Source: Romanomermis culicivorax (taxonomy: Eukaryota > Nematoda > Enoplea > Mermithida > Mermithidae). Taken from it: a stretch of DNA of 64,000 nt. Each line of letters begins with the position of its first letter. Positions within the stretch are counted from its first letter, which is position 1. The DNA lies in NCBI GenBank assembly GCA_963922205.1, contig CAWUHX010000014.1, forward strand, positions 2,180,889 through 2,244,888. Reading direction: 5' to 3'. Below are positions 10,646-60,525 of this stretch, one piece after another. Made by a program: the position numbers and the translations under genes. Below the pieces are notes generated by a model. It saw only the letters and a list, made by a program, of their open reading frames with translations, was not told the DNA's origin and did not search any database.

Positions 10646-10877
10646 CGTTGTCCTGAGTTTCATGATATATGTATGTGTCGAGGAATTTTTCTAGTTGCTC
10701 CTATGAGGAAAACCAGGAAAAACTTCGCATAAAAAATATTTTTGCAGGGACACATAAAGTTGATTTTAAAAAATTGATGAAGTTACAAGAGGTAATTGCT
10801 AAGTTTGTTTGGAGGCAGATTAACTAATGTAACTTTTTTTCAGCAGTAACTGTAGGCAACTGATATACACCATGACC

Positions 10878-11120
10878 CGACAATTGAGCGCCAGAAAATT
10901 GAGCATCGACAATTGAGTGCCGACAACTGAGCGCCAGACAACTGAGCGCCGTGACAACTGAGCGCTGACAACTGAGCACCGACAACTGAGCGCCAACAAC
11001 TGAGCATCGACAACTGAGCGCCGAGACAACTGAGCACCGACAACTGAGCGCCGAGACAGCTGAGCGCCAGACAACTGAGCGCCAGATAACTGAGCGCCGA
11101 GACAACTGAGCGCCGACAAC
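10878..11120. repeat. Minisatellite, GACAACTGAGCGCC-type unit
   Basis: About 16 degenerate copies of a roughly 14-16-base unit based on GACAACTGAGCGCC. Open frames through it are only repeat translations. It ends some 60 bases before the TTAGGC array. The CAAYTGAGCG core is shared with the ends of fold-back element type 1. Confidence 0.85.
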
Positions 11121-11182
11121 TGACCCCCGACTATTTAATGTCAGATAAATAACCCAATCAGTTTGAAGTAACTTTTTTGCAT

Positions 11183-11277
11183 TTAGGCTTAGGCTTAGGT
11201 TTAGGCTTAGACTTAGGCTTAGGCTTAGGCTTAGGCTTAGGCTTAGGCTTAGGCTTAGGCTTAGGCTTAGGCTTAGG
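11183..11277 (+). repeat. Telomere-type TTAGGC array, left of element A
   Basis: About 15 tandem TTAGGC units with a few variants (TTAGGT, TTAGAC), with the G-rich strand on the plus strand. TTAGGC is the telomere repeat known in nematodes. The array stops at the LTR edge of element A and resumes, in the same orientation, at 24425. Confidence 0.95.
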
Positions 11278-11756
11278 TGTTAGGCTGCTGTGGGGTCAAA
11301 CACTATGCAACAGTTCTGACCACAGGCTAACAACAACAACAACCACAAAACTCTCCCAGACGTTTCACCAGATACTCGCCAGAACTTTCACTAAACCTCA
11401 GGCAGAACACCTTGGCACGTACCTCAGGAGCTCCTACCCAAGTCTCCAATCCTACTCTTATACACTCCTTCCTCTACGCTCACAGAACAATACACTTAGG
11501 GGTTCAAGTTGTATTGGGTAGCTAGTGGCGACGCCAAAGTAACAATAATAAACAAAAATATTGTAGAAAGGCGATGGCGGCATCGCTCCATAAAAACAAA
11601 TAAATCTAACACTGACTAACAAACAGAAAAATCGCAAAACAGTGGCAGCATACATCTATGTAAATTATCACTTCTTTTCGGCCACTTTTCGCCGCGTCCA
11701 ACCGCCTGCGCACCGACGCCGGAAGCTGAACACGTGCACCTGAGACCACCTCAACA
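11278..11756 (-). repeat. 3' LTR of element A
   Basis: 479 bp, with TGTT and AACA ends, differing at 5 positions from 23941-24419. On the plus strand it begins TGTTAGGCTG and so includes one TTAGGC unit at the junction with the telomere-type array. Open frames inside it occur in both LTRs, but nothing supports them as genes. Confidence 0.95.
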
Positions 11757-12499: not shown

Positions 12500-15400
12500 T
12501 TATTGTTGCCCGCCGCCACCATAACCGCCGTATTGGAAGCTACCACGGTGAGGGTAGGGACCACCCCGAGCTCCACGACCCCTGAGGAATCCCCCAAAAA
12601 CTCCTCGAGGTTGGGCCACAGGAGGGGGTCCGCCCATCGCCTGTCCTCTATACCGTTGCGGATTAACCATTTTGAAGGGTCTTCCTTGACCCTGTCCCTG
12701 ACCCCAGCCTCAGCCATATCCCCCTCCAGTTCCCCTCTAGTACCTGCCCTGAGTGGAACTTACGGAAGATACTCCAGAACCTGAGGTACTGGACCTACCT
12801 TGACTCTGTTGATTAGCATATGGTACTTTGAATACTCCAGGCTGGTGCCGACCCTGCGAGTGAGACGATTGTCACGAGTGCTGGCTCCATGACCTGGATG
12901 TATCCCTAGGTTGTCTCTCCGTTAAAATGGGAATCTTGAAGGGTTGCCCCTCCTCATCCTCGGCCTTCTGAAATTTACCAGAAAATTTCTGAACCATGTC
13001 CGACAACCTTCTCTTTGCTGCCATATCTACTGCAGTTTGTTGGTGTTCCTGCATTCGGTTGGCATACGCTTCCCTGAATGCAGTACTACCTTCTCCCCGC
13101 AGATAGATAGAATAGTATCTTTCCGTGACAAATGACTTGGCCCGTACATCCACTGCACCAATGTGTCTCGGGCCTAACTGCTGTTGTTCTAACTTTAGCA
13201 ACACCATGGTACATAAGTATCTCACGGCTGCCATGACTATTCCCGCATCAAAATGATGAAACCAATTTGGCATGAACTTGAGCCAAATGTACTCCCAAAT
13301 GGGCTCAGGAACGTTTACATGATCATACAGGAAACCACCTTGAAGATCAAAGTGATCCCCGTAGTTCTCGTAAAGCTCCTCTACTCCATTATTCACCAAT
13401 GCCCAGATGATTTGATTCCTATTATCATCTGGCATATCCTGAGCAAAGAATTCGATCACCTCCGGTGTCGAAAAATCTATCCTTCCCTTCACCAAGGGAA
13501 ACTTCTTATGGACATCCCAGTAGTCTCTCAAAACAGAACTCAGGTACTCCAAAGTTACTTCCTTATCTCTACTTCTCTTGACCCATTTTGTCCGTTCCGA
13601 CGTAGAGGGTTTAGAAACAACTTTTTTCCCTGCGGAACTGCTCTGGTTCTACTGAGAAGTCTTATCCACCTTAGACACGGGCTTAGCCAAAGTACTTTTC
13701 ATCATTGCACTTACCTGAGATGCAGACGATTTACTAGGTACTTTAGCCGAAGCAACCGTCGACTGCACCTGACTCATAGAACTTTTGGTTCCAGGCATCA
13801 GGCTCCTCGGCGTAGTTCCAGTCTTGGACTTGGTTGAATCCATCAATAAAGTTGTAGATCCTGCAAACTTCAAGTCCACAGACGTAGAACTCCCTGTCTG
13901 TTCTCCTTCACCATCACTAATTTCAATAACATCTTCTTCATCTCTCCTTTTAGCCCTATTGGCCCTTCGGGCTAACTTTCTCCTTCCTAATCTTTTAATC
14001 TGATCGTCCATACGACCTTCTGCTCTGAACTTTCTAACCTCTTTGGCAGTATACATACCTGGTATACCACCGTCCATACTTGGATCTCTGGGCGCTACTT
14101 GAACTGTCTACTTGAACGGATTATCTTTGTACTGCGGACACTCCGCCAAATGCTTCCTTTTATCTTCCAGTCTTTGCTCCCATGACTTTGTCTTGGGCCA
14201 AAATCGGATCGGCAAAAATCCGAGACGATTTCCCCAACATGTAATCGCATCGCCCTTTGTTGGCGTATGCACCTCGGTTACTGGAAGACTGTTCAAAAAT
14301 GATAAGTATTGACCATACCTATCTCCCCTCCACAACATCTTCAAGAGTTGTTCCTTTCCCTCAGGGCTAAAGGATCTCAAATAGTTGTGGTCAAGGAGAG
14401 AGGTAAGGTACTCCTCCGCTTCCTCTCTACAAGCTGGCCAAAATAAATGAAACGTGAGCGGAACTTTATTACACACTGACTCCAAATTCTTAAAATTGTC
14501 CTCAATCAATATTTCAGAATAAGGACCGATATCCATACTCCAGTGTTGTCTTACATAGGAGTCTTTACCATTCGAAACTCTGACTGGTTCATACTCGTAG
14601 TAATCAACTTCCAGAGATGTTATCTCCAACAACTGTTTTGTTTCTTTCCTATACCTTAGGAAATTCTCGTATAAAACCATAGATACTGGTTCATCAAGTC
14701 TACTGAAACTTTTCCCTTGATTCACCATATCTACCACCTTCTTCGTAATTCGAGTTCTAATCTGCTTTTCCGACAAAGCTTCTTCGAACTCTTCATCCTC
14801 ACTTACCGTATCATTACCATCCACATTCTTACTTTTCTTTTTGATGGTATAATCAGGATGAATACCTTTAGGTATACTTACGTCTCTCCCTCTTTTCGGA
14901 TTTGACTCGTAATGAGGGAAGCTGTACTCCGTATAGCCTCCAAATGAGGTGTCCATTTGGGCAGCCATACGGGCATACACTTCCTGTCTCATCACGTGAT
15001 AAATAGCCGATGTGATAAATAAATAGCCATTATCTGAATTTGATAAATAGCCATTATCTGAATTTGATCCGCTTTCATCAAATCATGCGGAAAATACTGG
15101 AATCCGACCTCAACTTCCATAGCTAACTCATAGTGGAAAAACTCTAGGAAAACCAACAATGAGTAGTAGGCGTCCAGTGCTGAATACCGTATTTCAAACT
15201 GCGTCAATGTATGCCTACAGAATCGCTCACGTTGCGCTCTCTGACGGAAATCGATTTGGAAATAACCGACATCTGCCAGATACAGCTCTGTGAACAATCC
15301 TTTCAGCTTGAAAGTCTCCGGGCAAAGTCCCAACTTCCTGGACAATGCCAAAAATCTTCCGTTCAACTGGTCTCCTACCTTGGCTACGTCATAATAACGG

Positions 15401-16786
15401 CCATACGAAGACGTTACTCTATGCTTGATCTCCAGTGTTAGATCAACATCCTGGTGCTTTCTACCTGCGCCATTAACAATCCAGATGGGGACCAGATCTG
15501 TAACCAAGTTGTATCCAACGAGAAGCATGTCCGAATCTAGGAGCTCATGAATGAGCGTCCATTCCTTCGGCATGATTGTCGTAGTATCTACAACAAAGGT
15601 GTCTCCAGTTACCGTCGAGAAGCTAATGACTCTCGCGAACTCCTTCCCTTTTGGGTTATCAACCCCAGAAGTCGCGAAAACCTTACTCACATACTCTTGA
15701 GTAACTTTCTCGGTATCAAAACCGATAATTGGCTGTCCTCGAAACCTGCTCACCTTCAGGGTTTCGATCATCTCAGCCACCTTACCTATTTCGACCAATT
15801 TCGGTTCCGTCAATTCCAACGGAAATCTCCCGAAATTCGTGGCGAACCACCGTTCCAATTCGCCAACTCTAACAATGCGCTTGACATTGTAGTCTAAAAA
15901 ATTCAGGCGAAATGTTTACAACTTTTTAATGGAAATTTCTCGAAGCGGACACACATCGGTTAGACTCTACCTTCACCACAGATAGTAAGCACAAAAAGGA
16001 AAAAGAAAAAGAAATTGCAAGCAGGGGACAATAAGGTACCAAACATATATTGGGTTAGTGTTGGCAGATAGTTGAACACAAGTGCGGCCCCGACTTCTAC
16101 CTTATACGGGAGTACACGCACAGACCACCTGCGTCTTCCATCATTCGACTGCTAGCCATCTCAATCCAACGCCCAAAACGGCCTATCCAACTAATAAATT
16201 AAGAATTTCCAGGAAGAAATTTAAAATATATTTACTAATTTACCCAAAATGTGGAAATTCGTAGAAAAATAGATAATGATGGAATTTAGAAATTTAAATG
16301 AATTTGAAAATTATCTACCCCTAGTCGACTAGTTGCTACACTCCACTTCTTCCCCATCACATAGACGAATTTATTCAACTCGCTATGTGTGTAGAGGAAT
16401 GATGTAGTTTCGCAAAAAGTCCAAATTTCGCGCTACGGGCAGCTTTGCCACACTTTTTCAAGTTTGACAGAACAAATATGTTCCCACTAAATTTTTACAA
16501 TTGTCTAGGCCTTCATCTAGACACCCGTGGGCTATAACATCCTGCTTTGCCCAAATAATTTTTAGATTAACTAAGTTTAATAACTTAGGTCGCTTACCAT
16601 CGACTAGAAAATACCGATTATTTTGCCGCACCTGCGGCTGACCGTAGGTCACGTGGGGGTCCGTGACCAAGTATTGCTTTGTCCGGCGTCCATTGGGGGG
16701 CCTGGACATCTCGACCGCTTCTTTCTCAAATTCTTCGAATTCTGCGCTATCAATTTTCGAAAATTTTTGATAATTTTTTATAAGAG
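12500..16786 (-). pseudogene. Element A third ORF: DEDDy 3'-5' exonuclease plus unknown domain and RGG-like tail
   Basis: Model: exon 1 16786-16598 (ATG at 16709), intron 16597-15894, exon 2 15893-12500. Exon 2 starts with a domain bearing all DEDDy exonuclease motifs. Numbered from codon 15858, these are GFDTE (D48, E50), GYNLVTD (N117, D121) and YSALD (Y225, D229). This is the RNase D/WRN/MUT-7 pattern for metal-dependent 3'-5' trimming of RNA or DNA. Then follow an acidic and charged region (about 14900-14110), a Ser/Lys-rich linker, a conserved domain with PEPIWEY and AVRYL (about 13440-13180), and a Gln/Gly/Arg-rich tail. The frame change near 15000-15060 lies in a short tandem duplication. 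In-frame stops are at 14110, 13651, 12874, 12739 and 12712. It occupies the env position, but no membrane segment or signal peptide is seen. The exonuclease call is firm, its biological role is not. Confidence 0.8.
15894..16597 (-). other. Predicted intron in the third ORF
   Basis: Donor GATG/GTAAGC (exon ends 16598) and acceptor TTTTTTAG (exon begins 15893). The upstream exon leaves one codon base and the downstream exon supplies two, so the frame continues into the exonuclease ORF. Without splicing, a TAA in frame just upstream closes the exonuclease frame. Exon 1 itself is preceded by TTTTTCAG (to 16787), usable for cis- or trans-splicing. Confidence 0.6.
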
Positions 16787-17183: not shown

Positions 17184-20100
17184 CTACGGCAGTTTATAAT
17201 TACTAATTTTTGAATCTACAGTAAACTGCATGTCCTTAGATGACACGTCGTTAGACTGCAGCCATCTGCCGGTCTCGTAGCGAAAGTGCTTTAACCTGCT
17301 CACGGATACCACCTGCTTTTTCAGCGGCTCTCTCCAGTGCGCGATTTCAAGCACATTCTCTGATAATCTCCTATTATCAGTAACAACATACGGTCCTTGC
17401 CACGGCAGACCCAGTTTTTTCTGTTCATCGACTTTCAGCAAAACCCAATCATTGATGGAATAATCATGAGCTTTTGCTTTACGGTAAAAAAACTTTTTAC
17501 TGCTCTCCGCAGCCTTCCTGATATTCTCTGAAATGACTTCATAAGTTTCTACTAAACTTTCGGTTAGTATATGCTTATAAGCCTCATAGTTCATTGGCAG
17601 AACTATATTTCTTGCAACACCAATACTAATGCCAAAATTAGCCTCATGACCTCTCAATAAGGCAAATGGAGAACATCTCGTTGAGGTATGAGGTGTGGCA
17701 TTATACGCAAAAACGATAGATTGCAAGTATCTGTCCCACTTATCTGAATCCTCTATAGCAACCTTTCGCAACTGCTTGATCAAGGTTTGGTTAAACCTTT
17801 CAACCATTCCATTTCCTTGTGGAATGTAGGCAGTTGTGAAAATCTTCTGACACTCCAACAATTTACAGACTGACGTCATCAAATCAGCTGTAAAGCATGA
17901 ACCGTTATCACTCAACAATTTCACTGGGGTTCCATGCCTGAACACAATATTCCGAAGAAAACTGTCCACAATTGTTACAGCAGATTGATCCCGAATCATT
18001 TCTGCTTCCACCCATTTTGTAAAGTAATCTTGAAATACTATCACATACGGTCTTTTCTCGCTCATGGGAGATATTCCCACAATATCAACAGAGACTATGT
18101 CAAATGGTCCTCTAGGAATGATTGGATTCAATGGCGGAACTGTAGCCTTTCCTGGAGTCGCAATTTGACATATCGGACAAAAGCTGATCCAGCTCCGAAC
18201 ATCCTTCTCGATGCTCGGCCACCAGAACCGCTTTTTAATAATAGCAAGGGTTCTCTTAAACCCTTGATGCATCATCATCATTGCTCCATGATACTGATGC
18301 AGGACAACTTTTTTGAGAACAGAGGGGACAACAACTTGATCCTCTGCCTCGCCAAAAGTCTCTCTATATAGTATCCCTTGATCGATATAAAAGTTACTTT
18401 GAGACTTGGTGCCACTATTAGCACTTAGTTTCTCGAAGATCACTTTTAGATCTTTATCCTTTCCTGGCAACTTTGACATCAAGGTGTTTGAGATAAGCCC
18501 TTTCGGTCTACCATCTTCAATCTCTGGGGCTTCTTCAAACTCCTTCTCCTTCGGTTCAAAAATTCTCTTCATCTCTTCTTTAGGTTTAGCTTGCTCAGGA
18601 GGATGTCCTTTTTCCTCCTGCTGCAAGTTTTTCGCCATTTGTCTAGTGACTACCGCCTCAATTTCATATTTCTCAGGCGTTCGATAATTATCAAATTCTG
18701 GAGAAATATTAAGTTGAGTTTCATCACTAACACCATAGTTTGAAGCCACTGAAGCTGTGGCCATCTTCACCGGAGTGAAGACTCCTACAGCCTCATCCAC
18801 TTCATCTCCTCTGAGTTCCCGAAGTTGTTTCACTAAAACTTTGTGGTTTTGGTTAAGGACTTCGTCTTCAGTAAGAGATTTCACATCTTCTTTCTGAAAG
18901 ATAAGTTCCCATTTTGGTGGCAACTTCTCTTTCTGCTCATCCGGTTCCTCCTTCCTGGAGAGAAAATCTGCCATGGCATTCTGTCTGCCAGGCACGTACT
19001 CCAACTTGTGATCAAACTGGCAAATGAATGCGTACCACCTCTTGAGTTTGTCATTAGTCTGTGTGTTGACCCTCATTGATAATAAAGGTTTGTGGTCAGT
19101 TTGAATCCTGACCTTTTGGCCCAAAAGATAATGTTTGTAAATTTTAAGGCCGTAAACCACAGCTAAGCATTCCCTTTCGGTGGCGCACCATTTCCTTTCT
19201 TCTGCCCGCAATATCCGACTATTGTAGGCAATCACCCAACGTTCCGAGTCAGTCTCTTGACATAACACTGCTCCCAATGCAATTCCACTGGCATCCGTTT
19301 GAAGAATGAATCGCGCAGATCCATCTAGAATTGGATGTCTTAAGAAAGGTACTGAGGTCAATGCTACTTTGAGCTTCTCAAAAGTTGTGTAATGTAACTC
19401 CGTCACATTCCATGTTCCCTTCTTGCCCGTTAATTTGTACAAAGGTTCAGCTAGTGCTGCTAGGTCTGGTATAAATTTCTTACACCATTGTAGCATACCT
19501 AGGAATCTTTGCATTTTCTTAACAGAATCCGGGAATGGAAATTCCGTTATCGCCTTGACCTTCTTAGGATCCGGAGAAATTCCATTCCCATCCAAGATGT
19601 GTCCTAAAAAGTGCACCTTCTCGGGAAGAAATTCACATTTCTCCGGCTTAAGAGTCAACTTCGCCTTCCTCAGTGCTTCTAGCACCATTTTCAAATTCTC
19701 TAAGTGTTCCTCCAACGTATTCGAGAAGATGATAATATCATCTATGTACACTAGGCAAATTTTCCATACCAAATCCCCAAGGATTCTCTCCATCATCCTT
19801 TGGAATTCAGCAGGTGCATTCTTCAATCCAAACGGCATCACTTTAAACTGAAACAAGCCCTCTTGGCATATAAAAGCCGTTTTCTCCTTGCTCTCCTCCT
19901 CCATCGGGACCTGCCAATATCCCGACTTCAGATCTAGAGTCGTACAAAACTTAGCTCTTCCAAGGCAATCTAAATAGTCATCCATTCTCGGGATGGGATA
20001 TTTATCATCCTTGGTCACTTCGTTTATACCTCTAAAATCAACTACTGGTCTCGTAGTTCCATCTTTCTTTCCAACCAGGAACAAGGGTGCAGCCCACGGT

Positions 20101-20501
20101 GACTTCGAGGGCTCGATCACTCCTTGATCCAACATCTCCTTTATATGTCGCCTTACTCCTGGCCAACTATTAATTGAAGCTCTGTAATATCTCTTTGCTA
20201 CAGGTCTCGCATCTCCTGTATCTATCTTGCATGTCAGAGCTGGGGTTGTAGTAGCCGGATCACCAGGCAAGCTAAAGACATCTCTGTACTTCAACAAAGA
20301 TTCTATAGCTTCCGTTTTCTTCTCTTCCGAAATTTTCGCCTTCGATATCATCCTGCATAGTGAAGTATAGAACTCTACAGAATCAGCTTTTGATAATGCA
20401 GGCATTCCTTCCTTTACCATACAGGTCTGATATTCCTTTTCCTCCTTTATCTTTTTCATTTCCTTCACCTTCTTGTACGTATCATCATCTTCAATAAGCA
20501 T
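17184..20501 (-). CDS. pol: Pol: reverse transcriptase, RNase H and integrase
   Basis: An uninterrupted 1105-codon frame. RT: LDLKSGYWQV (D190) and YIDD (252-255), residues about 90-340. RNase H: QTDASG (D403), ATERECLAV (E442 or E444), TDH (D469), ADFLSR (D512). A charged spacer (about 520-700) precedes integrase. Integrase: zinc-binding H738, H745, C775, C778, then catalytic D806, D865 and E901, with 35 residues between the last two, as usual for DDE integrases. It copies element RNA to DNA and inserts it. The start is arbitrary: the frame opens further upstream, where it should continue from the protease, but two frame changes (near 20660 and 20585) separate them. No chromodomain is seen at the C-terminus. 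Confidence 0.93.
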   Translation of the reverse strand: MLIEDDDTYKKVKEMKKIKEEKEYQTCMVKEGMPALSKADSVEFYTSLCRMISKAKISEEKKTEAIESLLKYRDVFSLPGDPATTTPALTCKIDTGDARPVAKRYYRASINSWPGVRRHIKEMLDQGVIEPSKSPWAAPLFLVGKKDGTTRPVVDFRGINEVTKDDKYPIPRMDDYLDCLGRAKFCTTLDLKSGYWQVPMEEESKEKTAFICQEGLFQFKVMPFGLKNAPAEFQRMMERILGDLVWKICLVYIDDIIIFSNTLEEHLENLKMVLEALRKAKLTLKPEKCEFLPEKVHFLGHILDGNGISPDPKKVKAITEFPFPDSVKKMQRFLGMLQWCKKFIPDLAALAEPLYKLTGKKGTWNVTELHYTTFEKLKVALTSVPFLRHPILDGSARFILQTDASGIALGAVLCQETDSERWVIAYNSRILRAEERKWCATERECLAVVYGLKIYKHYLLGQKVRIQTDHKPLLSMRVNTQTNDKLKRWYAFICQFDHKLEYVPGRQNAMADFLSRKEEPDEQKEKLPPKWELIFQKEDVKSLTEDEVLNQNHKVLVKQLRELRGDEVDEAVGVFTPVKMATASVASNYGVSDETQLNISPEFDNYRTPEKYEIEAVVTRQMAKNLQQEEKGHPPEQAKPKEEMKRIFEPKEKEFEEAPEIEDGRPKGLISNTLMSKLPGKDKDLKVIFEKLSANSGTKSQSNFYIDQGILYRETFGEAEDQVVVPSVLKKVVLHQYHGAMMMMHQGFKRTLAIIKKRFWWPSIEKDVRSWISFCPICQIATPGKATVPPLNPIIPRGPFDIVSVDIVGISPMSEKRPYVIVFQDYFTKWVEAEMIRDQSAVTIVDSFLRNIVFRHGTPVKLLSDNGSCFTADLMTSVCKLLECQKIFTTAYIPQGNGMVERFNQTLIKQLRKVAIEDSDKWDRYLQSIVFAYNATPHTSTRCSPFALLRGHEANFGISIGVARNIVLPMNYEAYKHILTESLVETYEVISENIRKAAESSKKFFYRKAKAHDYSINDWVLLKVDEQKKLGLPWQGPYVVTDNRRLSENVLEIAHWREPLKKQVVSVSRLKHFRYETGRWLQSNDVSSKDMQFTVDSKISNYKLP

Positions 20502-20658
20502 AGATTCTGTATCGCCAATGATCTGATCTCTCTCAAACCGACAACCAGAACCCGTAGTATTGGAGATTAGTACTAAAACTCCTCTTGTGATCCGTCTACA
20601 ACCGCTTTCTCCATTCTGAACTTCCTTTCAGAACCCTTTGATTCGACAATAATTCCAT

Positions 20659-23600
20659 TCAACGTGGCATCTCCATGTTGATCCCAAATTTTGCCTTCAT
20701 CAAAACATCTGTTCCATATGGAATGTAGGTTTTACTACATGCAACAATTGCAACAGTTGTCTTTAGCAGACAGACTTTTGGATAAACAATTTGATTTATG
20801 CAATCAGTCGACGCCACACTGACTTTAGTTACTTCTTCCATTACCGTTTGCACAGTAGTTACAGAAGGAACTTGAACTACGTCAATCTTTCTTTCAATGC
20901 CCTGTATTGTCATGGCATTCCTTTTGAAATCAATCACCACACCTAAATCTGGGTGTGCTAAAAAATCTGTGCCCAAGATCAGGTCCTCACCTGCATCTGG
21001 CAACACTATAGCATTGACTGGAAAACTTCCAAATTCAGTCTTCATACAAACTGGTACATACCCATAGGCATGCACAACTTTTCCATCAGCTACAGTCACT
21101 TTAAGAATACGAGGGTACACTGTATAATCAACGTCTAATGCCCTTTTCAGGAGCTTAGAAGACATGACCATACACTGAGCTCCTGTATCGATTAAAGCTC
21201 TGGTAGCCGTTTCTTTAATAACTACATTTATATAGAAAGGAACCGTTTTCGGATAATTTTCCAACAACCTTCTCTCTACGTCCATTGCTTTCCTTCCATA
21301 TTTCACATGAGCCAAATCTCTTTCTTTCACTTTTTCTAGAGGTGTCACCTTATCCAGGTGAATAATACTTCCGAGAACCAAACTAGAAGATTTGTTTCTA
21401 CTCTGTTCGCTTTCATCATCCACATCCGTACGGCTTGTCACCATTACATTATGCGAACTAGGTTGCGACTGGTTCGAAACAAATGATCCAGACTGATCCT
21501 GGACGGTACTACCCTGAATAGCAGGTTGACTAGTTGGTGCAGGTAACATCAACTGAGGCTGTCTCTGCAACTGGATGCCTTGTTCCATGAGTCTGCAGAA
21601 TTCCCTGTATCTCTCAAACTCTGGGTCATACCCGTACATTTGATCTTCTTCGGGGAATCCTACATAATAGGCACCTCTTCCTCTTCCTCTAAATCCAAAC
21701 TGAGGTCCACCTCTACCTCTAAAACTTCCTCTATATGAAGCATTCCTATCACCACCATAATACTGATTAGGCATGCCACGGTTAAATCCACCGCGTTGCT
21801 GTTGCTGACGCCGGTATGCTAATGTCTTACACTCCTCCGTAGCATGCGTATTATTCTTATGATAAATGCAATAGGGTCTCTGCTGCTTCAACTGCTTCTG
21901 CTTTTCAGCAGACGCAGCCTTCACAGTAGTCAACTCCTTTAAGGCTTCACTCTGAGTAACTTGTAATTTATCTACTTTCTGAACCAATTGTAGCCATTCC
22001 TTCGAGAGAATAGCTAGAAAAGACTCCTTGGCCTGCTCCTCGTTAGACTTTTTGACATCACAAGGCGACGGACCAGGTAGCATCTCTTCCGCATTCTCCT
22101 CACTTCTCTCCTCTTCCACTGCCTTTTGCAACTGATTTTGTGGTCTTGACTTCGTCTGGTCATACTTTTTAGTACTTCCATACGGAGCATTCCCTACAAA
22201 AGCAATTTCCGGGCACTTCTCCTCTGCTACAACTTGATTCACCACAATTGGTTTATCCTTGGCTCCAAAAGCAGTAAACACATTCTTATATTTCTTATCA
22301 ATCTGAGTTACGGCGTATGCAAGGTCTTACCAAGTTTTCATCGATGGCAATACATCCTGCAACTCCGTCTGATACAACGGACTACTCTTATAAATGAAGG
22401 CATTAATAATATTCTCTTGCCATACTTGATCACTCTGATCTGCATAGACCAGATCCACATGATTACTCAATCTCTTTAAAAACTCAAAGGCTGACTCGCC
22501 TTCTTCCTGTTTCATATTAAACAACTCCCTTTTGAGCATCGTCAAATCATAAGTCGGCGCGAGATACTTTAAAATATTTCTCCGCGCTTCTGTATAACTT
22601 GAGGATGTTCTTGCTATCCTCCTCGCCGTGTTCTGAGACAACCTTCTCAAACACTCCTTTTTCACTTTATCAGCCGTATTCTCCAGAAATTCACTTTCCA
22701 GATCAGTAAAAAATTTCAAAGCCTCTGTCGGCTTTATACTATCATGTAAAGGTCTATGCTTCAAGGCCTTTACCACATCTCTCACATCAACTTCAACACT
22801 TGAGCTAGAGTTCGAAGTAGATGAACTGCTATTATCACTATCCGAGTAATGTCTACTTCTAGCTCTAGATCTGTGAGATCTCATTCTACTCTTTGACCTC
22901 TTCTTTCTCCTCCTCTCAGGGCTAAGGTCAGCTCTATTTGCGGTATCTCTCCAAGGAGTAGGACGAGAAAACCTATCCTCTCCCTGGGACGATTCGCCGC
23001 AAATAGTCACCTTCCTTTCCCTAGACCTCCTATTCTCTGAGTAACCGTAGGCATTCGATTGTGCTTGTTCAGCATTCCTCGAACTCTGCGGCTCCTCAGT
23101 CCAACCTCTATCTCTAGTCGAATATTTGTCTCTATCATCTTGAGACCTGACATTAACTTCTGAATGAACCTCTCTCTTAGGTTCACTAACTCTCTCAACT
23201 CTATTCTCAAGGTAAGAAGACTCACCTATCTTCCTCCATTGATCATCCTCCGTTTCTTTTTCCTTGACTTGCGCGCTTTCAATAACCTTGATCAATAATT
23301 CGACCTTTTTCTCCAGCGCATTAAATCGTAAATCCTTGGGATCGACTCGATCCCTTGGATCCTCTCATCGATTCCAATTCGTAATTCCGGGCTCGTATCG
23401 CCTCGAATATTTATCGTCATATAAATCAGCCGGTGCGTCCTCGTAATATTCATCGTAATTCATGTCCACCATGTTCGACCTCCACGCCGGTTTCGATTTC
23501 CGTCTAATCTCCTCCAGCGTTTCGGCCATCGGATGGACCAACTTCGAGGGCGACGTCGGTCTCTCCTTCTCAAAGGTCTGCTGACCTCTGACACTACCAC

Positions 23601-23832
23601 TTACAGTAGTTTCAATCTCGGCTCTCCTAGCCATCTCAAAACCACTTCTCCTCAACTCTTCTTCAACTCTTGCCATTTCGGCAATTCCACTCTCTCTCCT
23701 TCCTTCAGTCTCAGGCGCCTGTGCTTGAACCTTTTCTACCGCTGCGTGTTCTTCAGCAGAGTCAAGATTCGAAACACTAGGTTCATGTTACCTAGGAGGA
23801 GTCCTCAACGTTTTTCCTACCGGTATACTCAT
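20659..23832 (-). pseudogene. gag-pro: Gag plus retropepsin frame, broken by stops
   Basis: One reading frame from ATG at 23832 to TGA at 20661, interrupted by TAA 23790, TGA 23367 and TAA 22329. It has an Arg/Ser-rich stretch (about 22940-22830), a gag capsid-like region (about 22760-22330), and a nucleocapsid knuckle C-x2-H-x4-H-x4-C (C138, H141, H146, C151, counted from 22281). Arg/Gly repeats (about 164-205) and a retropepsin follow, with IDTGA (active-site D365) and the downstream ILGTDFL motif. Gag packages the RNA and the protease matures the proteins. Two stops lie in GTAAC/GTAAG-like contexts that could also be splice donors, but plain mutation is the simpler reading. Confidence 0.85.
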
Positions 23833-23940: not shown

Positions 23941-24419
23941 TGTTAGGCTGCTGTGGGGTCAAACACTATGCAACAGTTCTGACCACAGGCTAACAACAAC
24001 AACAACCACAAAACTCTCCCAGACGTTTCACCAGATACTCGCCAGAACTTTCACTAAACCTCAGGCAGAACACCTTGGCACGTACCTCAGGAGCTCCTAC
24101 CCAAGTCTCCAATCCTACTCTTATACACTCCTTCCTCTACGCTCACAGAACAATACACTTACGGGTTCAAGTTGTATTGGGTAGCTAGTGGCGACGCCAA
24201 AGTAACAATAATAAACAAAAATATTGTAGAAAGGCGATGGCGGCGTCGCTCCATAAAAACAAATAAATCTAACACTGACTAACAAACAGAAAAACCGCGA
24301 AACAGTGGCAGCATACATCTATGCAAATTATCACTTCTTTTCGGCCACTTTTCGCCGCGTCCAACCGCCTGCGCACCGACGCCGGAAGCTGAACACGTGC
24401 ACCTGAGACCACCTCAACA
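23941..24419 (-). repeat. 5' LTR of element A
   Basis: 479 bp, TG...CA ends, nearly identical to 11278-11756. It should hold the promoter and the polyadenylation region. I did not identify a TATA box with confidence. Confidence 0.95.
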
Positions 24420-24424
24420 TAGTC

Positions 24425-24554
24425 TTAGGCTTAAGCTTAGGCTTAGGCTTGGGCTTAGGCTTGGGCTTAGGCTTAGGCTTAGGCCTAGGCTTAGGCTTAG
24501 GCTTAGGCTTAGGCTTAGGCTTAGGCTTAGGCTTAGGCTTAGGCTTAGGTTTAG
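24425..24554 (+). repeat. Telomere-type TTAGGC array, right of element A
   Basis: About 20 units of TTAGGC with variants (TTGGGC, TTAAGC, CTAGGC), in the same orientation as 11183-11277. Element A interrupts what was one array of roughly 220 bases. Confidence 0.95.
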
Positions 24555-34380: not shown

Positions 34381-35781
34381 CACCTCCTTTCTTATTTGAA
34401 TCTTTGTCCTGATTGGGTGAGTATTTCAATCTATTAGTTATCCAAGGGCTCCAGTTGTTCCACTTTGTAGTGCATCTGTTCTGGGAGTAGTAGGTTAAAG
34501 CTTGGAGCCCTTCAGGGAGCATCATTATTCTGAGACGTGGCACAAACTTATTCCAACATATAACAGAAATTAAATTCCATATGAGCTATTTTGTTCCGAA
34601 CAAAATGCAAGTGTTTTTAATCAAATGCACTTATAAATCGAATTCATCATTTTCTTTACAGAAAAGAGTGGTCTGGATGAGTTCTACCAAATGAAATAAA
34701 TCATATTTTGCGTAAAAGCTGGATTGCAAATATATAGTGGACTTAAGTCAAACATAATAGATATCATCTCATTGGAAGTTTTGATGTCTAGTTCTTGATC
34801 TATCATTTACTAAGGTGCAAAGAGTCCTTTGAGTGATAATTTGAGGTGTCTTTTTAGTCTAAATAGTCAGTTGTCAGGAACTCATTCAGTGAATTTACCC
34901 ACAATGGTTTACCATCAAACTCATGTTTGACTACGGTCTACCTTGGCTATAAAATTTCCGTTTCCCAGACACGGCTTTCATAAAACTGATCTCTAATCAT
35001 CAAACCGAGTTCTTACTGCAGAAACCCAGTTCTCAAATTGCATACTGTTCTCAAACCTTTCTTTGTTTAAATTTTGGAGTATAGACAGTGAAAAAGTTTA
35101 TCAAATGTTCCACTTACTCTTTCTTTTGAAACTCTGTTTCTAGAGAACATGAGATGCTGCTGTGAAGGTAGAATCTCTAGTTCAACGTATTTTTCTTCAC
35201 CAGATGACTTGCTTTGGTAGAGTACACGATTTTCAAACTGATTTCAATGCAGTTACACTCTGTTTTATAAAACCACTGTAAAACACACTGTCATCAAAAT
35301 AGTCTGTTGAAAATTTTTACTCTAAAATTTTTACTCAAAAACTTTTTGAATGTTAATGGAGCATATGAACAAATTTTCAGTCCTATGAGACTTAATGACT
35401 CAACAGAAAATCGTAAAAAAACGAAAAAGTACGTGCTTTCTACTTTTATTATTTAGAAGCGTAAGGTGCTCTCATTTTCAAGTTATCTGAAGACAGAGTG
35501 CTCCTTTTGATACGTAATATCTGCAGTGAACTACAAATTATGTCCAAACCACATCATCACTTCACAAATTATACGTGTACCTGAACCTATCTAGGCTCGC
35601 CCATTGCAACATCTGACTAAACGTTTGAATGACTTTATCACTCCTAATAAGCTTTTCAACATGACTGCATATTTTAATGGCTTTTGTTTTGGAAACCTAA
35701 CTTTCTGAACAGTCCAAGTGGAATATTTGTTCATAAATCGATAAAATATATGTTTACCATTTGGGTAAATAATTGACTCAC

Positions 35782-41700: not shown

Positions 41701-44445
41701 GATTTTCACACCTACAACGATATAAGACTCAAGCATGTAGAACTGTACTAGAATTATACAGAAGATTACGGTTATTGACAACTTGTAATGTTTTGTTTCA
41801 TGAGCAAAAAAAGTAGGTGACAAGAAAAAGGAAAAGGAGACAAAAGATGAAAACGTTAAAACGTACCTAAACGAAAACATTAACAAAACACCCAGAAAAC
41901 GAAAGAAAAAAGAAATACATACAAAGAGAAATATTAGGTAAAGAAAGAAAATATGAAGAAAATGTTATTAGATTCTTGATCGCTCGTTTACAATCACCCA
42001 ATTGGGAGTTGGCTCAATTGGGAATCGCTCACTTGGGAATCGCAGACTTGAGAATCGCTCACTTGGGAATAGACCAATGAAAAGTTCAAGCACCCTTCAC
42101 CCTGGAAGCTTATTGCATTGCATGTCTGGCATTTTCCATCTTGGGTACCCATCTGGCTGCACAAGACGGAAGCAATGCTTGTTGCATCCAACAACCATCA
42201 TATTGGAAAACAAAGTAGACGATAGCAACGCTTATCATGCTTTTTAGAAAAGATTTTGTGTGAAGTATTGGGAAAAGCGAAAGATAATCAAGCCATCCAC
42301 ATCACAGTCAAAATTTGCGTTCCTACAATACTCCAAGGTTTTGAACTTTCCAATTTTTTCGCATTTTTCCGTCTGTGTATGTGTTTCGAAGTGTTCCAGC
42401 TCAGGAAAGACGCGACTCTGTAGCCAAGTGTTCATCAAATGCAGAATATCACGCTCTCTATTCAGGTGTGAAAATGAGATTACTCCCTCGGTCTGTCTTT
42501 ATTATGCTATTTTAAAACGAAGTCGAAATAAATCGAGATAGTCATTTGTAGCCTTTTTGGGACACCTCCCATTTGAATGCCGCAGAATTTTTTCTTTATT
42601 TATAAATCCACTAATGTTCGGGATATTGTATTGAAACTTGAATCAGATCTCCATGCTGTTTCCGAAGCTATATGTGCCTGCACTTACTTCACGTTCACGC
42701 AAAAATGCTTTTAATCCCATCAGATATTCTATCGATAAGATGCAGTAAACGTTTGAAAACGTATAGATTAGGCGCATGTGGATCGAATCACAAAAAAAAT
42801 TTCATTGATCTATTCACAATGGTTGTGCAACAGCATCTAAAACTTATCTATTCTATAATTTAATTGGAAAAAACTGCAGCTGTATGTTTGATGTTACAAA
42901 GTCTGTCTGACTCCCACACAGTTAAAGACATATTGTTTAACACTACGTAGAATGATTCAGAAGAAAATAAATCAGGTTGTAGTCGATTGCAAGATCATGA
43001 CCAACACAGCACGGCGCTTCTGGAAACTGTCATTTTCCTCTAAATCTAATTCAACAATCACTCAATCTCTAGCATTCAGTGAAAATTTTCGCAGATTTCA
43101 GACTGGCATTAAACATGTATTGTTCAGTAGCCATTAGCATGATCAATGAAAACTTATCGACACTTGGAATCAAACTTTCTTCATGATGTATCAGGTCAAG
43201 ACGCAGAACATCAATCTTTCTGAATTTTTCAAGATCGAAGACGTATTTAAATGACAGTGTGGTGTGAGAAAATCTCCGCACAAGACGTTCGACAATAATG
43301 CTCACAGAAATGAAAGAAAAAGTTCTGCAAGGTCCTATGAGAAGATACTCAAAGTGTTTCCAATGACTTTTTCATCCATTTTCCATCACTCTATTCACAC
43401 TTTAAAATATCACAAAAGTGTGGAATATGAGATTAGGAAAATGACCTGGTTAAGCACAACATGAATTCATTATGGTCTCATGTCGTGCTCATCTGGCACT
43501 TGCCTTACACGACCTGTAGGAGAAAACTTACTTCAGAGAGCAGCGAAATAAGGCCATGATATGAAGTAAGAGTTGTAATATGAATCGTCAGAATACATAA
43601 AGGTATATTTACCGTCTAGACATAGTAAATCACATCTGGTACGGACCGTGCGAATCTTATTCAGATGCTTCTCTGTATTCAGATCATGGTGCACCCTATA
43701 ATATCATCTGATGTCAATGTGCAGCACGTACAGGTAAGGTATCCACCTGCTCCAGTCTTGTCTTATACTATGCTGCAGCAGATCACGCCAAGCCATACTG
43801 ACATAAACTGATGGAATTACACTTCACAAACGTTCTCTGGGTGGTAGAATGTAGAGCTATGAGACTTTACATTGTTTTGCTTTAGTATCTTGAAGGTATA
43901 GGAGAATCGCAGATATTCAACTGTCTCAAAAACGGAAAGAATAAGCATAGCTTAAACTAAGGATGAGGCTTGCCCTTCAAACACCACAAACCGCCAAAAA
44001 TAAGGATTAGATCATCTGGAGTCCAGCTTTTATTTGTCTGAGAAGAATGTCGATTCCATCTCTGATTCTATCTGAGTCTGCATCTGCGTTTCAGACGCGA
44101 TCTGCCACCTGCATCTGAAAGCAGATCTTCCGTTTAGTTGCACCCTACCTGAAAGCTGCTCCCCAACATCACGGTATGAAGCATTAGCACACAACAAATA
44201 GTACTGAAAAAGATTCACTTTTTTCCAGAAGGAACGCAGTGGGCAGCTGTGAGCACAATATCTGAGGAAACTCCATTCGAAACGTTCATAGGAGGATTGA
44301 TCAAAAACGCGTCACAAAAGCCCAGAGGACGTTTTTCGTCACCAATTTCGAAAAGACGGCCCATCCATGGTTGGGAACCTGGTTCAGTCTGGTCGCGATT
44401 GATAAGACGTTTATGACGACGTAAAGAAGAATGATCAACTGTCAA
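35782..44445 (-). CDS. S1 serine protease with PAN/apple-like region, unit 1
   Basis: Well-supported exons: 44445-44219, 41009-40741 and 36379-35782. Less sure: 37608-37308 and about 37101-36903. Exon 1 shows RRHKR before LINRD, a furin-like activation site in place of the usual IVGG entry, and TAAHC (catalytic His). Exon 2 starts in phase and has NHDIAML (catalytic Asp) and MSGW. The 36379 exon opens with GDSGSP (catalytic Ser). After the S1 end (DHFQWI) about 60 residues of linker lead to a Cys-rich stretch with FC...HCATLC...SC...HCYLS...DC, like a PAN/apple domain. The signal-peptide exon should lie upstream, in the N gap. The protein is likely a secreted, active protease. Substrate is unknown. 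If the 36903 exon is right, position 189 is Leu, not the Asp of trypsin. Confidence 0.7.
36457..36885. mobile_element. MITE in protease intron, unit 1
   Basis: About 22-bp terminal inverted repeats: ACAGTACCATATAAAATTAA at the left and its near complement GGTTAATTTCATCTGGTACT at the right, 429 bp in all. The interior has GATGCATCC/GGATGC phrases. It lies in the intron before the GDSGSP exon. Unit 2 copy: 52617-53045. Confidence 0.75.
37625..39060. repeat. Degenerate GTCAY-N-RTGAC repeat region, unit 1
   Basis: Many short phrases such as GGTCATCC, GAGTGACC, GGTCACTT and AAGTGACCAC on both strands, spaced over 1.4 kb inside the intron between the second and third protease exons. It looks like an old fold-back element built of short palindromic units. 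Open frames in it are not accepted as exons. Confidence 0.5.
39061..40740. other. Intron sequence, nothing recognised, unit 1
   Basis: AT-rich intron DNA, with a short ATT microsatellite near 39508. The frame at 40595-40392 differs at several residues between units and lacks good splice signals. Confidence 0.4.
41096..42070. repeat. Fold-back element type 1, unit 1
   Basis: Same family as 4686-5605, with GATTCCCAATTGAGCG units at the left end and AATTGGGAATCGCTC units at the right. T-rich left and A-rich right arms face each other. It sits in the first intron of the protease gene. Confidence 0.7.
42071..44218. other. Intron 1 sequence of the protease gene, unit 1
   Basis: About 2.1 kb with several short open frames on both strands. 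The same frames occur in unit 2, as expected from the duplication, but none shows domain content. Confidence 0.4.
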
Positions 44446-57900: not shown

Positions 57901-60525
57901 CAAGAAAAAGGAAAAGGAGACAAAAGATGAAAACGTTAAAACATACCTAAACGAAAACATTAACAAAACACCCAGAAAACGAAAGAAAAAAGAAATACAT
58001 ACAAAGAGAAATATTAGGTAAAGAAAGAAAATATGAAGAAAATGTTATTAGATTCTTGATCGCTCGTTTACAATCACCCAATTGGGAGTTGGCTCAATTG
58101 GGAATCGCTCACTTGGGAATCGCAGACTTGAGAATCGCTCACTTGGGAATAGACCAATGAAAAGTTCGAGCACCCTTCACCCTGGAAGCTTATTGCATTG
58201 CATGTCTGGCATTTTCCATCTTGAATCCCCATCTGGCTGCACAAGATGGAAGCAATGCTTGTTGCATCCAACAACCATCATATTGGAAAACAAAGTAGAC
58301 GATAGTAACGCTTATCATGCTTTTTAGAAAAGATTTTGTGTGAAGTATTAGGAAAAGCGAAAGATAATCAAGCCATCCACATCACAGTCAAAATTTGCGT
58401 TCCTACAATACTCCAAGGTTTTGAATTTTCCAATTTTTTCACATTTTTCCGTCTGTGTATGTGTTTCGAAGTATTCCAGCTCAGGAAAGACGCGACTCTG
58501 TAGCCAAGTGTTCATCAAATGCAGAATATCATGCTCTCTATTCAGGTGTGAAAATAAGATTACTCCCTCGGTCTGTCTTTATTATGCTATTTTAAAACGA
58601 AGTCGAAATAAATCGAGATAGTCATTTGTAGCCTTTTTGGGACACCTCCCATTTGAATGCCGCAGAATTTTTTCTTTATTTATATATCCACTAATGTTCG
58701 GGATATTGTATTGAAACTTGAATCAGATCTCCATGCTGTTTCCGAAGCTATATGTGCCTGCACTTACTTCACGTTGACGCAAAAATGCTTTTAATCCCAT
58801 CAGATATTCTATCGATAAGATGCAGTAAACGTTTGAAAACCTATAGATTAGGCGCATGTGGATCGAATCACAAAAAAAATTTCATTGATCTATTCACAAT
58901 GGTTGTGCAACAGCATCTAAAACTTATGTATTCTATAATTTAATTGGAAAAAACTGCAGCTGTATGTTTGATGTTACAAAGTCTGTCTGACTCCCACACA
59001 GTTAAAGACATATTGTTTAACACTACGTAGAATGATTCAGAAGAAAATAAATCAGGTTGTAGTCGATTGCAAGATCATGACCAACACAGCACGGCGCTTC
59101 TGGAAACTGTCATTTTCCTATAAATCGAATTCAACAATCACTCAATCTCTAGCATTCAGTGAAAATTTTCGCAGATTTCAGACTGGCATTAAACATGTAT
59201 TGTTCAGTAGCCATTAGCATGATCAATGAAAACTTATCGACACTTGGAATCAAACTTTCTTCATGATGTATCAGGTCAAGACGCAGAACATCAATCTTTC
59301 TGAATTTTTCAAGGTCGAAGACGTATTTAAATGACAGTGTGGTGTGAGAAAATCTCCGCACAAGACGTTCGACAATAATGCTCACAGAAATGAAAGAAAT
59401 AGTTCTGCAAGGTCCTATGAGAAGATACTCAAAGTGTTTCCAATGACTTTTTCATCCATTTTCCATCACTCTATTCACACTTTAAAATATCACAAAAGTG
59501 TGGAATATGAGATTGGGAAAATGACCTGGTTAAGCACAACATGAATTCATTATGGTCTCATGTCGTGCTCATCTGGCACTTGCCTTACACGACCTGTAGG
59601 AGAAAACTTACTTCAGAGAGCAGCGAAATAAGGCCATGATATGAAGTAAGAGTTGTAATATGAATCGTCAGAATACATAAAGGTATATTTACCATCTAGA
59701 CATAGTAAATCACATCTGGTACGGACCGTGCGAATCTTATTCAGATGCTTCTCTGTATTCAGATCATGGTGCACCCTATAATATCATCTGATGTCAATGT
59801 GCAGCACGTACAGGTAAGGTATCCACCTGCTCCAGTCTTGTCTTATACTATGCTGCAGCAGATCACGCCAAGCCATACTGACATAAACTGATGGAATTAC
59901 ACTTCACAAACGTTCTCTGGGTGATAGAATGTAGAGCTATGAGACTTTACATTGTTTTGCTTTAGTATCTTGAAGGTATAGGAGAATCGCAGATATTCAA
60001 CTGTCTCAAAAACGGAAAGAATAAGCATAGCTTAAACTAAGGATGAGGCTTGCCCTTCAAACACCACAAACCGCCAAAAATAAGGATTAGATCATCTGGA
60101 GTCCACGTTTTATTTGTCTGAGAAGAATGTCGATTCCATCTCTGATTGTATCTGAGTCTGCATCTGCGTTTCAGACGCGATCTGCCACCTGCATCTGAAA
60201 GCAGATCTTCCGTTTAGTTGCACCCTACCTGAAAGCTGCTCCCCAACATCACGGTATGAAGCATTAGCACACAAAATATAGTACTGAAAAAGATTCACTT
60301 TTTTCCAGGAGGAACGCAGTGGGCAGCTGTGAGCACAATATCTGAGGAAACTCCATTCGAAACGTTCATAGGAGGATTGATCAAAAAAGCGTCACAAAAG
60401 CCCAGAGGACGTTTTTCGTCACCAATTTCGAAAAGACGGCCCATCCATGGTCGGGAACCTGGTTCGGTCTGGTCGCGATTGATAAGACGTTTATGACGAC
60501 GTAAAGAAGAATGATCAACTGTCAA
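51942..60525 (-). CDS. S1 serine protease with PAN/apple-like region, unit 2
   Basis: Exons 60525-60299, 57138-56870 and 52539-51942 are well supported. Exons 53768-53468 and about 53261-53063 are less sure. His (TAAHC), Asp (NHDIAML) and Ser (GDSGSP) are all present, as are the RRHKR/LINRD activation site and the PAN-like Cys pattern. The GDSGSP exon encodes the same protein as in unit 1. The open frame continues upstream of 60525 through TCTTTACAG, a good acceptor, so the apparent hydrophobic N-terminus starting at 60573 is probably intron read-through. The true signal-peptide exon should lie further right and was not found. Confidence 0.7.
52617..53045. mobile_element. MITE in protease intron, unit 2
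   Basis: Counterpart of 36457-36885 with the same inverted ends and almost no change. Confidence 0.75.
53785..55220. repeat. Degenerate GTCAY-N-RTGAC repeat region, unit 2
   Basis: Counterpart of 37625-39060 in the same intron. Confidence 0.5.
57224..58150. repeat. Fold-back element type 1, unit 2
   Basis: Counterpart of 41096-42070, about 50 bases shorter because of deletions in the left T-rich arm. These account for most of the drop in offset between the units. Confidence 0.7.

Follow-up and report, generated by a model that had tools for sequence, protein, structure and literature searches.

A probable DEDDy 3'-5' exonuclease under purifying selection in Ty3-type long terminal repeat elements of the nematode Romanomermis culicivorax

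Background

Long terminal repeat (LTR) retroelements carrying an exonuclease gene behind the polymerase gene are known from bdelloid rotifers. The elements Juno and Vesta encode a DEDDy exonuclease as their third open reading frame (ORF3), the function of which is left open in the part of the paper we draw on (Rodriguez, Kenefick and Arkhipova 2017, PMC5408684). A 2019 review counts a DnaQ-like exonuclease among the well-known accessory domains of LTR elements in the passage that cites Novikova 2008 and Ustyantsev 2017 (PMC6338049). Apart from the rotifer paper, the literature searched for precedents yielded nothing but reviews and listings. Here we analyse an element with a similar layout in a stretch of 64,000 nucleotides, called the window below, from Romanomermis culicivorax (assembly GCA_963922205.1, contig CAWUHX010000014.1, positions 2,180,889 to 2,244,888). 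This species is a clade I nematode and a parasite of mosquito larvae. A first-pass annotation of the window had recognized an LTR element with its own DEDDy exonuclease and knew of no Ty3/gypsy precedent, a claim of novelty not supported in view of the DEDDy ORF3s of Juno and Vesta (PMC5408684).

Results

The ORF3 of the window element and its family, which we call F1, almost certainly starts with a domain homologous to the DEDDy 3'-5' exonucleases, inside a Ty3-type LTR element. The motifs GFDTE, GYNLVTD and YSALD pointed out in the first-pass annotation lie in one minus-strand frame (15915-14992), between the LTRs and downstream of a pol region with RVT_1, RNase H, H2C2 and rve matches. ExoI D.E, ExoII D and ExoIII Y...D are present in this order in the exonuclease part of the main ORF3 frame (14992..15915, minus strand), i.e. 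D67/E69 at 15717-15709, D140 at 15498-15496 and Y244...D248 at 15186-15172. The Pfam search suggested earlier did give a match to PF01612 (E 0.0015), but its 18.8 bits are under the curated cut-off of 23.6. We consider the homology firm because of a chain of matches. The window protein finds the related ORF3s of families F5 and F3 by phmmer with E-values, calculated for a target set of 2012 sequences, of 5.7e-11 and 1.7e-9 (best of 2000 shuffles 0.38), and F3 matches PF01612 over the cut-off, ExoI included (7.7e-8, 32.8 bits). Family F4 reaches 23.0 bits, just under the cut-off, and an NCBIfam model of a bifunctional 3'-5' exonuclease/polymerase is matched weakly (0.0054). In alignment A5 the five catalytic residues line up and are conserved in F1, F1b, F3, F5 and a further family, F2; the exonuclease identities are 44% for F1b and 24-26% for F5. 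The sole departure in A5 is an F4 fragment (L072), which starts after ExoI and has no Tyr in that column. The LTRs, the pol region and the homology chain thus bear out the earlier picture, in which the LTR element is of the Ty3 type and its DEDDy exonuclease ORF comes third, in the env position.

Several search results weigh against this assignment. Two full 1445-aa ORF3 proteins reach PF01612 only at ~0.04, and F1b and F5 have no Pfam match. A profile of F1 only (A6) found no exonuclease in PDB, and for the F1/F3/F5 profile (A8) calmodulins (0.024) rank over a mut-7 homologue (0.51). Profile A5, which includes F2, matches WRN, the mut-7 homologue and EXD2 in PDB at ~1e-4; the aligned part is mostly the ExoIII end, and F2 contributes to these scores. 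For the window protein by itself, EXD2 comes up at 1.5.

Selection keeps the exonuclease domain of the F1 ORF3 and its catalytic residues. We calculated the ratio of nonsynonymous to synonymous differences (pN/pS) as uncorrected proportions of the Nei-Gojobori type. It is 0.11 for the exonuclease core in 8 copies, and 0.11 again in a second set of 6 copies (three common to the first set; 2 of 8 loci without the exonuclease stretch were dropped). The later parts of ORF3 give 0.09-0.20 in 8 copies and two short N-terminal stretches 0.00 and 0.11. The control, the tail of the F1 pol, has a ratio of 0.23 over 74 codons only in 5 copies, with 3 of 8 loci dropped in which the search pattern found no tail. 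Most of the copies used had open frames (F1 L009-L016, and F2 chosen by open ORF3), a bias towards constraint that counts against these values.

The ORF3 is a giant frame that could be expressed separately through splicing. It has 1445 codons, gap-free and 95.2-98.5% identical, in 8/8 fetched copies (L009-L016), which were picked for a listed intact 1445-aa frame; such a frame occurs in >60 of the 129 scored genome matches. The exonuclease comes first, followed by ~1100 residues without a Pfam match, where NCBIfam matches are at chance level only, and an Arg/Gly-rich end. Kept splice-like sites and their phase predict an exon 1 of 37 codons + 1 nt (16598..16709, minus strand) and a 704-bp GT...AG intron (15894..16597, minus strand) between the pol end and the main exon, which would begin after the AG, at 15893. 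Both the donor (ATG, then GTAAGC) and the acceptor (TTTTTTAG, then ACTACAA) are kept in 9/9 copies, and the phases agree. Exon 1 has a pN/pS of 0.12 (9 copies), and a GQPQ.RQ.N segment similar to it precedes the F5 ORF3 (L079). The true 5' end is uncertain since the start codon is missing in 1/9 copies (L009). We rejected an errantivirus-like membrane glycoprotein as the ORF3 product: the single copy checked shows no clear membrane span (best 19-residue hydropathy 1.53), Pfam and NCBIfam scans found no envelope domain, and the tail is Arg/Gly-rich.

The window copy itself is decayed. All three motifs share a frame as first described, but the single ORF does not hold in the window, where stops and a 24-bp tandem duplication (near 15068-15019) disrupt ORF3. 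The rest of ORF3 with the Arg/Gly-rich tail (12500..15082, minus strand) is broken by this duplication (15019-15068), by TAG at 14108 and 13649, and by TGA at 12872. The gag-protease frame (20659..23787, minus strand) is interrupted by TGA at 23365 and TAA at 22327. Stop readthrough was ruled out for these broken frames because copies without those stops exist.

The element occupies 13.1 kb of the minus strand and is of the Ty3 type, judged from its domain order and Pfam families. Its 5' LTR (23941..24419) and 3' LTR (11278..11756), both on the minus strand with TG...CA ends and with their edges read, are ~479 bp each and differ by 5 mismatches in 480 aligned columns (475/480 identical). A stretch beginning with TGG and resembling a primer-binding site follows the 5' LTR from 23938 downwards, on the same strand. 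The order is gag, protease and then reverse transcriptase (RT), RNase H and integrase. The gag-protease frame matches gag-asp_proteas (E 5e-10) and, weakly, Retrotrans_gag (E 0.011). The pol region with RT, RNase H and the integrase H2C2 and core (17184..20627, minus strand) matches RVT_1 (9e-41), RT_RNaseH (3e-30), Integrase_H2C2 (1.5e-18) and rve (7e-12). In many of 40 scored pol copies gag-pol is a single open frame of ~2258 aa. Pfam scans of the window frames found no dUTPase.

The exonuclease recurs in many copies of the element. We searched the assembly of 359,112,060 bases in 595 contigs, where 129 of 3337 first-look candidates for the exonuclease were scored and all 129 pass E 1e-3, so that the count is a lower bound. 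The exonuclease ORF lies 1262-1282 bp downstream of pol on the same strand in 31/40 scored pol copies; in the other 9/40 it is not among the 129 scored matches, which does not imply absence. Forty LTR matches were scored out of 1326 candidates, and among them are 15 same-strand pairs <20 kb apart, 10 of which have a scored exonuclease match between the LTRs. The span is 13.1-14.4 kb in 13/15 pairs, 11.7 kb in another (with exonuclease) and 6.0 kb in the last (none scored). A host gene outside LTR elements, the case which the first-pass annotation had named as refuting it, was ruled out as an artefact by the exonuclease matches inside LTR pairs and the 31/40 linkage to pol. The two LTRs of a pair differ at 0-9 of ~477 sites (10 pairs), therefore some insertions are recent.

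The elements insert at scattered sites with 4-bp target duplications. An exact duplication, read by eye, is present in 9/9 non-window LTR pairs with both outer flanks read, and 6 of these 9 have a scored exonuclease inside. The flanks of the window copy, TAGG (11274-11277) and TAGT (24420-24423), are read as such a duplication with one change (3/4 bases). This copy sits in TTAGGC, the nematode telomere repeat, with arrays on its two sides at 11183..11277 and 24420..24554 (no strand assigned). It is alone in this among the 10 LTR pairs with both flanks read, the other 9 being in unrelated sequence, and the repeat occurs in 0/8 of the 3' flanks of the fetched ORF3 copies (2 of these from pairs already counted). 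Telomere targeting was rejected on the 9/10 pairs outside TTAGGC repeats, which also lend no support to the earlier suggestion that the enzyme processes telomeric ends for insertion.

Other repeats were observed in the window. A minisatellite of ~14 bp (CCGACAACTGAGCG, 17 copies, 10877-11131) adjoins the TTAGGC array. Arrays of one 15-bp unit (CAATTGGGAATCGCT) with identical statistics lie at 41999-42070 and 58079-58150, ~16.1 kb apart, and 14-bp arrays lie at 35310 and 51470, ~16.2 kb apart. These pairs ~16.1-16.2 kb apart suggest a large repeated segment.

Related families suggest that pol and ORF3 have had a long joint history. The F1b frames have 1356 aa and the F5 ORF3 up to 1361 aa, and F3 is mostly interrupted (F3/F4 loci L071, L074, L072). 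The two genes have apparently kept company for a long time, because the F5 ORF3 also sits behind a related, diverged pol, i.e. an open RNase H-integrase frame with 43-51% identity to the window's (one copy).

A separate family, F2, encodes the exonuclease in elements in which we detected no RT. Its LTRs are ~620 bp and its ORF3 has 608 aa, with PF01612 scores of 41-51 bits in 3/3 scanned. The best 20 of 116 PF01612 matches in the genome, fetched as loci (L047-L066), are all F2, and integrase-like sequence lies upstream on the same strand in 18/20. Two copies were read upstream (L067, L069): their ORF2 encodes a zinc knuckle, RNase H and integrase, and Pfam found no RT domain in 2/2; an RT-like stretch in L067 is on the opposite strand and outside the LTR. 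We counted ORF2 matches in the genome from 71 rows minus 7 second fragments of split matches, with 4 exonuclease positions taken from the PF01612 match list. A scored F2 exonuclease lies <=5 kb downstream in 37/41 matches starting at the ORF2 front (some partial) and in 4/4 other partial matches. It does so in 4/19 matches to RNase H-integrase alone, 3 of which 19 are in frames >2000 aa; one counted among the 19 (C21) belongs with the 41, its other half being a left-out fragment.

The F2 exonuclease is strongly constrained, whereas the F2 integrase region is nearly free of constraint. The exonuclease pN/pS is 0.06 in 11 copies and 0.03 in 8 close copies (per pair, 3.1 nonsynonymous versus 29.0 synonymous differences). 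In these 8 copies the ratio for the integrase region is 0.79 over ~268 codons, the frame-shifted end left out (27.7 versus 9.8 differences). Synonymous divergence is 3x higher in the exonuclease than in ORF2; recombination between lineages is a possible cause. The contrast between the two ratios stands regardless of this excess.

The F1 and F2 exonucleases are not detectably related by sequence. Comparison of the two profiles gave an hhalign probability of 10% (E 0.003), and the F2 profile finds no F1 match better than shuffles, so we treat the F2 exonuclease as a separate or very old acquisition. F2 alone finds the uncharacterised BAD_0989 (0.003) and WRN (0.006). The string GR.PL before ExoI is common to F1 and F2 and missing in F1b and F5; as the alignment may be off at that distance, it is a hint only of a link.

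Two further observations concern F2 copies. Nine listed copies (e.g. C69, C74, C58, C343) have an ORF2 that stays open across 1151-1165 codons despite its nearly unconstrained tail; in a simple simulation ignoring relatedness, the chance of 8/8 tails (~300 codons) staying open is ~0.005. At C158:179777-194956 three F2 fragment copies of equal score are spaced by exactly 5778 bp, which suggests tandem amplification.

Discussion

Our favoured reading is an accessory nuclease acting on RNA. The F1 ORF3 product would be a separate RNA-binding DEDDy nuclease translated from a spliced RNA, and might have an accessory role at RNA 3' ends; we regard this reading as a whole as evenly balanced between right and wrong. 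Most likely the nuclease would blunt Dicer-dependent silencing by shortening small or double-stranded RNAs that target the element, and somewhat less likely it would trim the element's own RNA, transfer RNA (tRNA) primer or complementary DNA (cDNA) ends. DEDD nucleases countering RNA-based defence are known in the arenavirus nucleoprotein (NP) and in ERI-1, which are DEDDh and not DEDDy. The likeness to them is in the proposed mechanism only, i.e. a DEDD nuclease on small or double-stranded RNA.

The step towards silencing is tentative, and we would sooner doubt it than rely on it. Our preference for it has two grounds: the F2 contrast separates the enzyme from its carrier's own pol, and the host is reported to be without Piwi-interacting RNAs (piRNAs) and belongs to a group thought to use Dicer-made small interfering RNAs (siRNAs). 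Loss of piRNAs is reported for R. culicivorax (PMC6436959), and the part of a further study that we draw on saw no 5'-triphosphate small RNAs in it and proposed, with data from Trichinella, that basal nematodes target transposons with Dicer-made siRNAs (PMC4323106). Two considerations weigh against this step: host biology and the F2 contrast are the only strands of evidence behind it, and conclusions drawn on F2 extend to F1 by analogy, given that the two exonucleases are not detectably related. The boldest form is rather unlikely. In it the exonuclease would be an element-encoded suppressor of siRNA silencing in a piRNA-less nematode, of such benefit that RT-less LTR elements retain it under strong selection as their pol degenerates; these elements would be satellites that depend on the enzymes of an autonomous relative and bring along a nuclease against host defence.

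A role in the replication cycle is nearly as likely as one against silencing, though on its own we would bet against it. RNase D-type enzymes mature RNA 3' ends, and the exonuclease could shorten the element's RNA, its tRNA primer or its cDNA from the 3' end, or take off misincorporated ends, so that reverse transcription and integration can go ahead, in cis or in trans. The rotifer authors also suggested RNA 3'-end maturation for DEDDy ORF3s (PMC5408684). The travel of ORF3 with pol in 31/40 scored pol copies is in agreement with such a role, as is their joint divergence (F5 pol 43-51% and F5 exonuclease 24-26% identical), and F2 could borrow RT in trans from putative donors, relatives with ~92%-identical RNase H-integrase. 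However ORF3 is outside the gag-pol frame and hence not obviously packaged, and the F2 exonuclease is constrained where the F2 integrase region is not. Replication of F2 relatives without the exonuclease also seems possible since 15/19 RNase H-integrase-only matches have no scored F2 exonuclease <=5 kb downstream.

It is improbable that ORF3 is an RNA-binding or structural protein with the exonuclease fold kept for binding, as in the inactive DEDD relatives Maelstrom and EXD1. The exonuclease takes up just a portion of the 1445 residues, constraint is similar over all of ORF3, and inactive relatives were raised by the rotifer authors as well (PMC5408684), but the catalytic residues are kept over highly diverged families, the F4 fragment L072 excepted. 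An envelope substitute for cell-to-cell transfer would explain the position and the predicted splicing, which are as for env; with no clear membrane span in one copy and no envelope domain, we find it very improbable. Chance capture of a drifting host gene fragment could account for the decayed window copy and is hardly credible against a pN/pS of 0.11, a 1445-codon frame in >60 of 129 matches and several diverged families.

Several diverged nematode families with intact catalytic motifs and measured purifying selection argue that the element gains something from the enzyme, and the contrast inside the RT-less F2 separates the value of the nuclease from that of its carrier's own pol. R. culicivorax, reported to be piRNA-less, is also suited to studying how elements in animals cope with Dicer-type silencing.

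The R. culicivorax elements share with Juno and Vesta a DEDDy (RNase D-like) ORF3 behind pol inside an LTR element. Protein searches at E<=0.01, 0.001 and 1, by a method that requires shared 5-residue words, gave R. culicivorax proteins only. In the rotifers the DEDDy ORF was acquired at least twice and has no coiled-coil or membrane part, according to the sections drawn on here (PMC5408684). The motif of Juno and Vesta reads DEED there, while DEDD is intact in F1, and the nematode F1 differs further by its 1445-codon ORF3 and predicted intron. The rotifer test found variation in env-like and GDSL-like ORF3s mostly neutral within a genome, with none reported for DEDDy ORFs in those sections, whereas the nematode exonuclease is under clear purifying selection. 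A dUTPase is described in all bdelloid clades except Mag, in contrast to the window frames, where we found none. TelKA2n, a non-autonomous rotifer element without most of pol, keeps an env-like ORF3 (PMC5408684); it parallels F2 and is a precedent for an ORF3 outliving pol.

DEDDy exonucleases also occur in other systems. The Terminon/Athena Penelope-like elements are also retroelements with a DEDDy exonuclease as cargo (PMC5408684, PMC6431247). As described there, they have an Athena-like RT, are endonuclease-deficient and attach to telomeric ends, whereas F1 has LTRs, an integrase and 4-bp duplications at scattered sites. WRN, EXD2 and the mut-7 homologue are host genes, and the likeness to them comes through profile A5 (~1e-4), F1 alone having no significant match.

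Similar cargo in rotifer elements suggests a recurrent strategy rather than an accident. The kind is already known from rotifers and the nematode families are a variant of it. Within the open-licence literature searched, what is new is the nematode host, the intact DEDD, the giant ORF3 behind a predicted intron, the measured constraint on the exonuclease and the carriers without detected RT.

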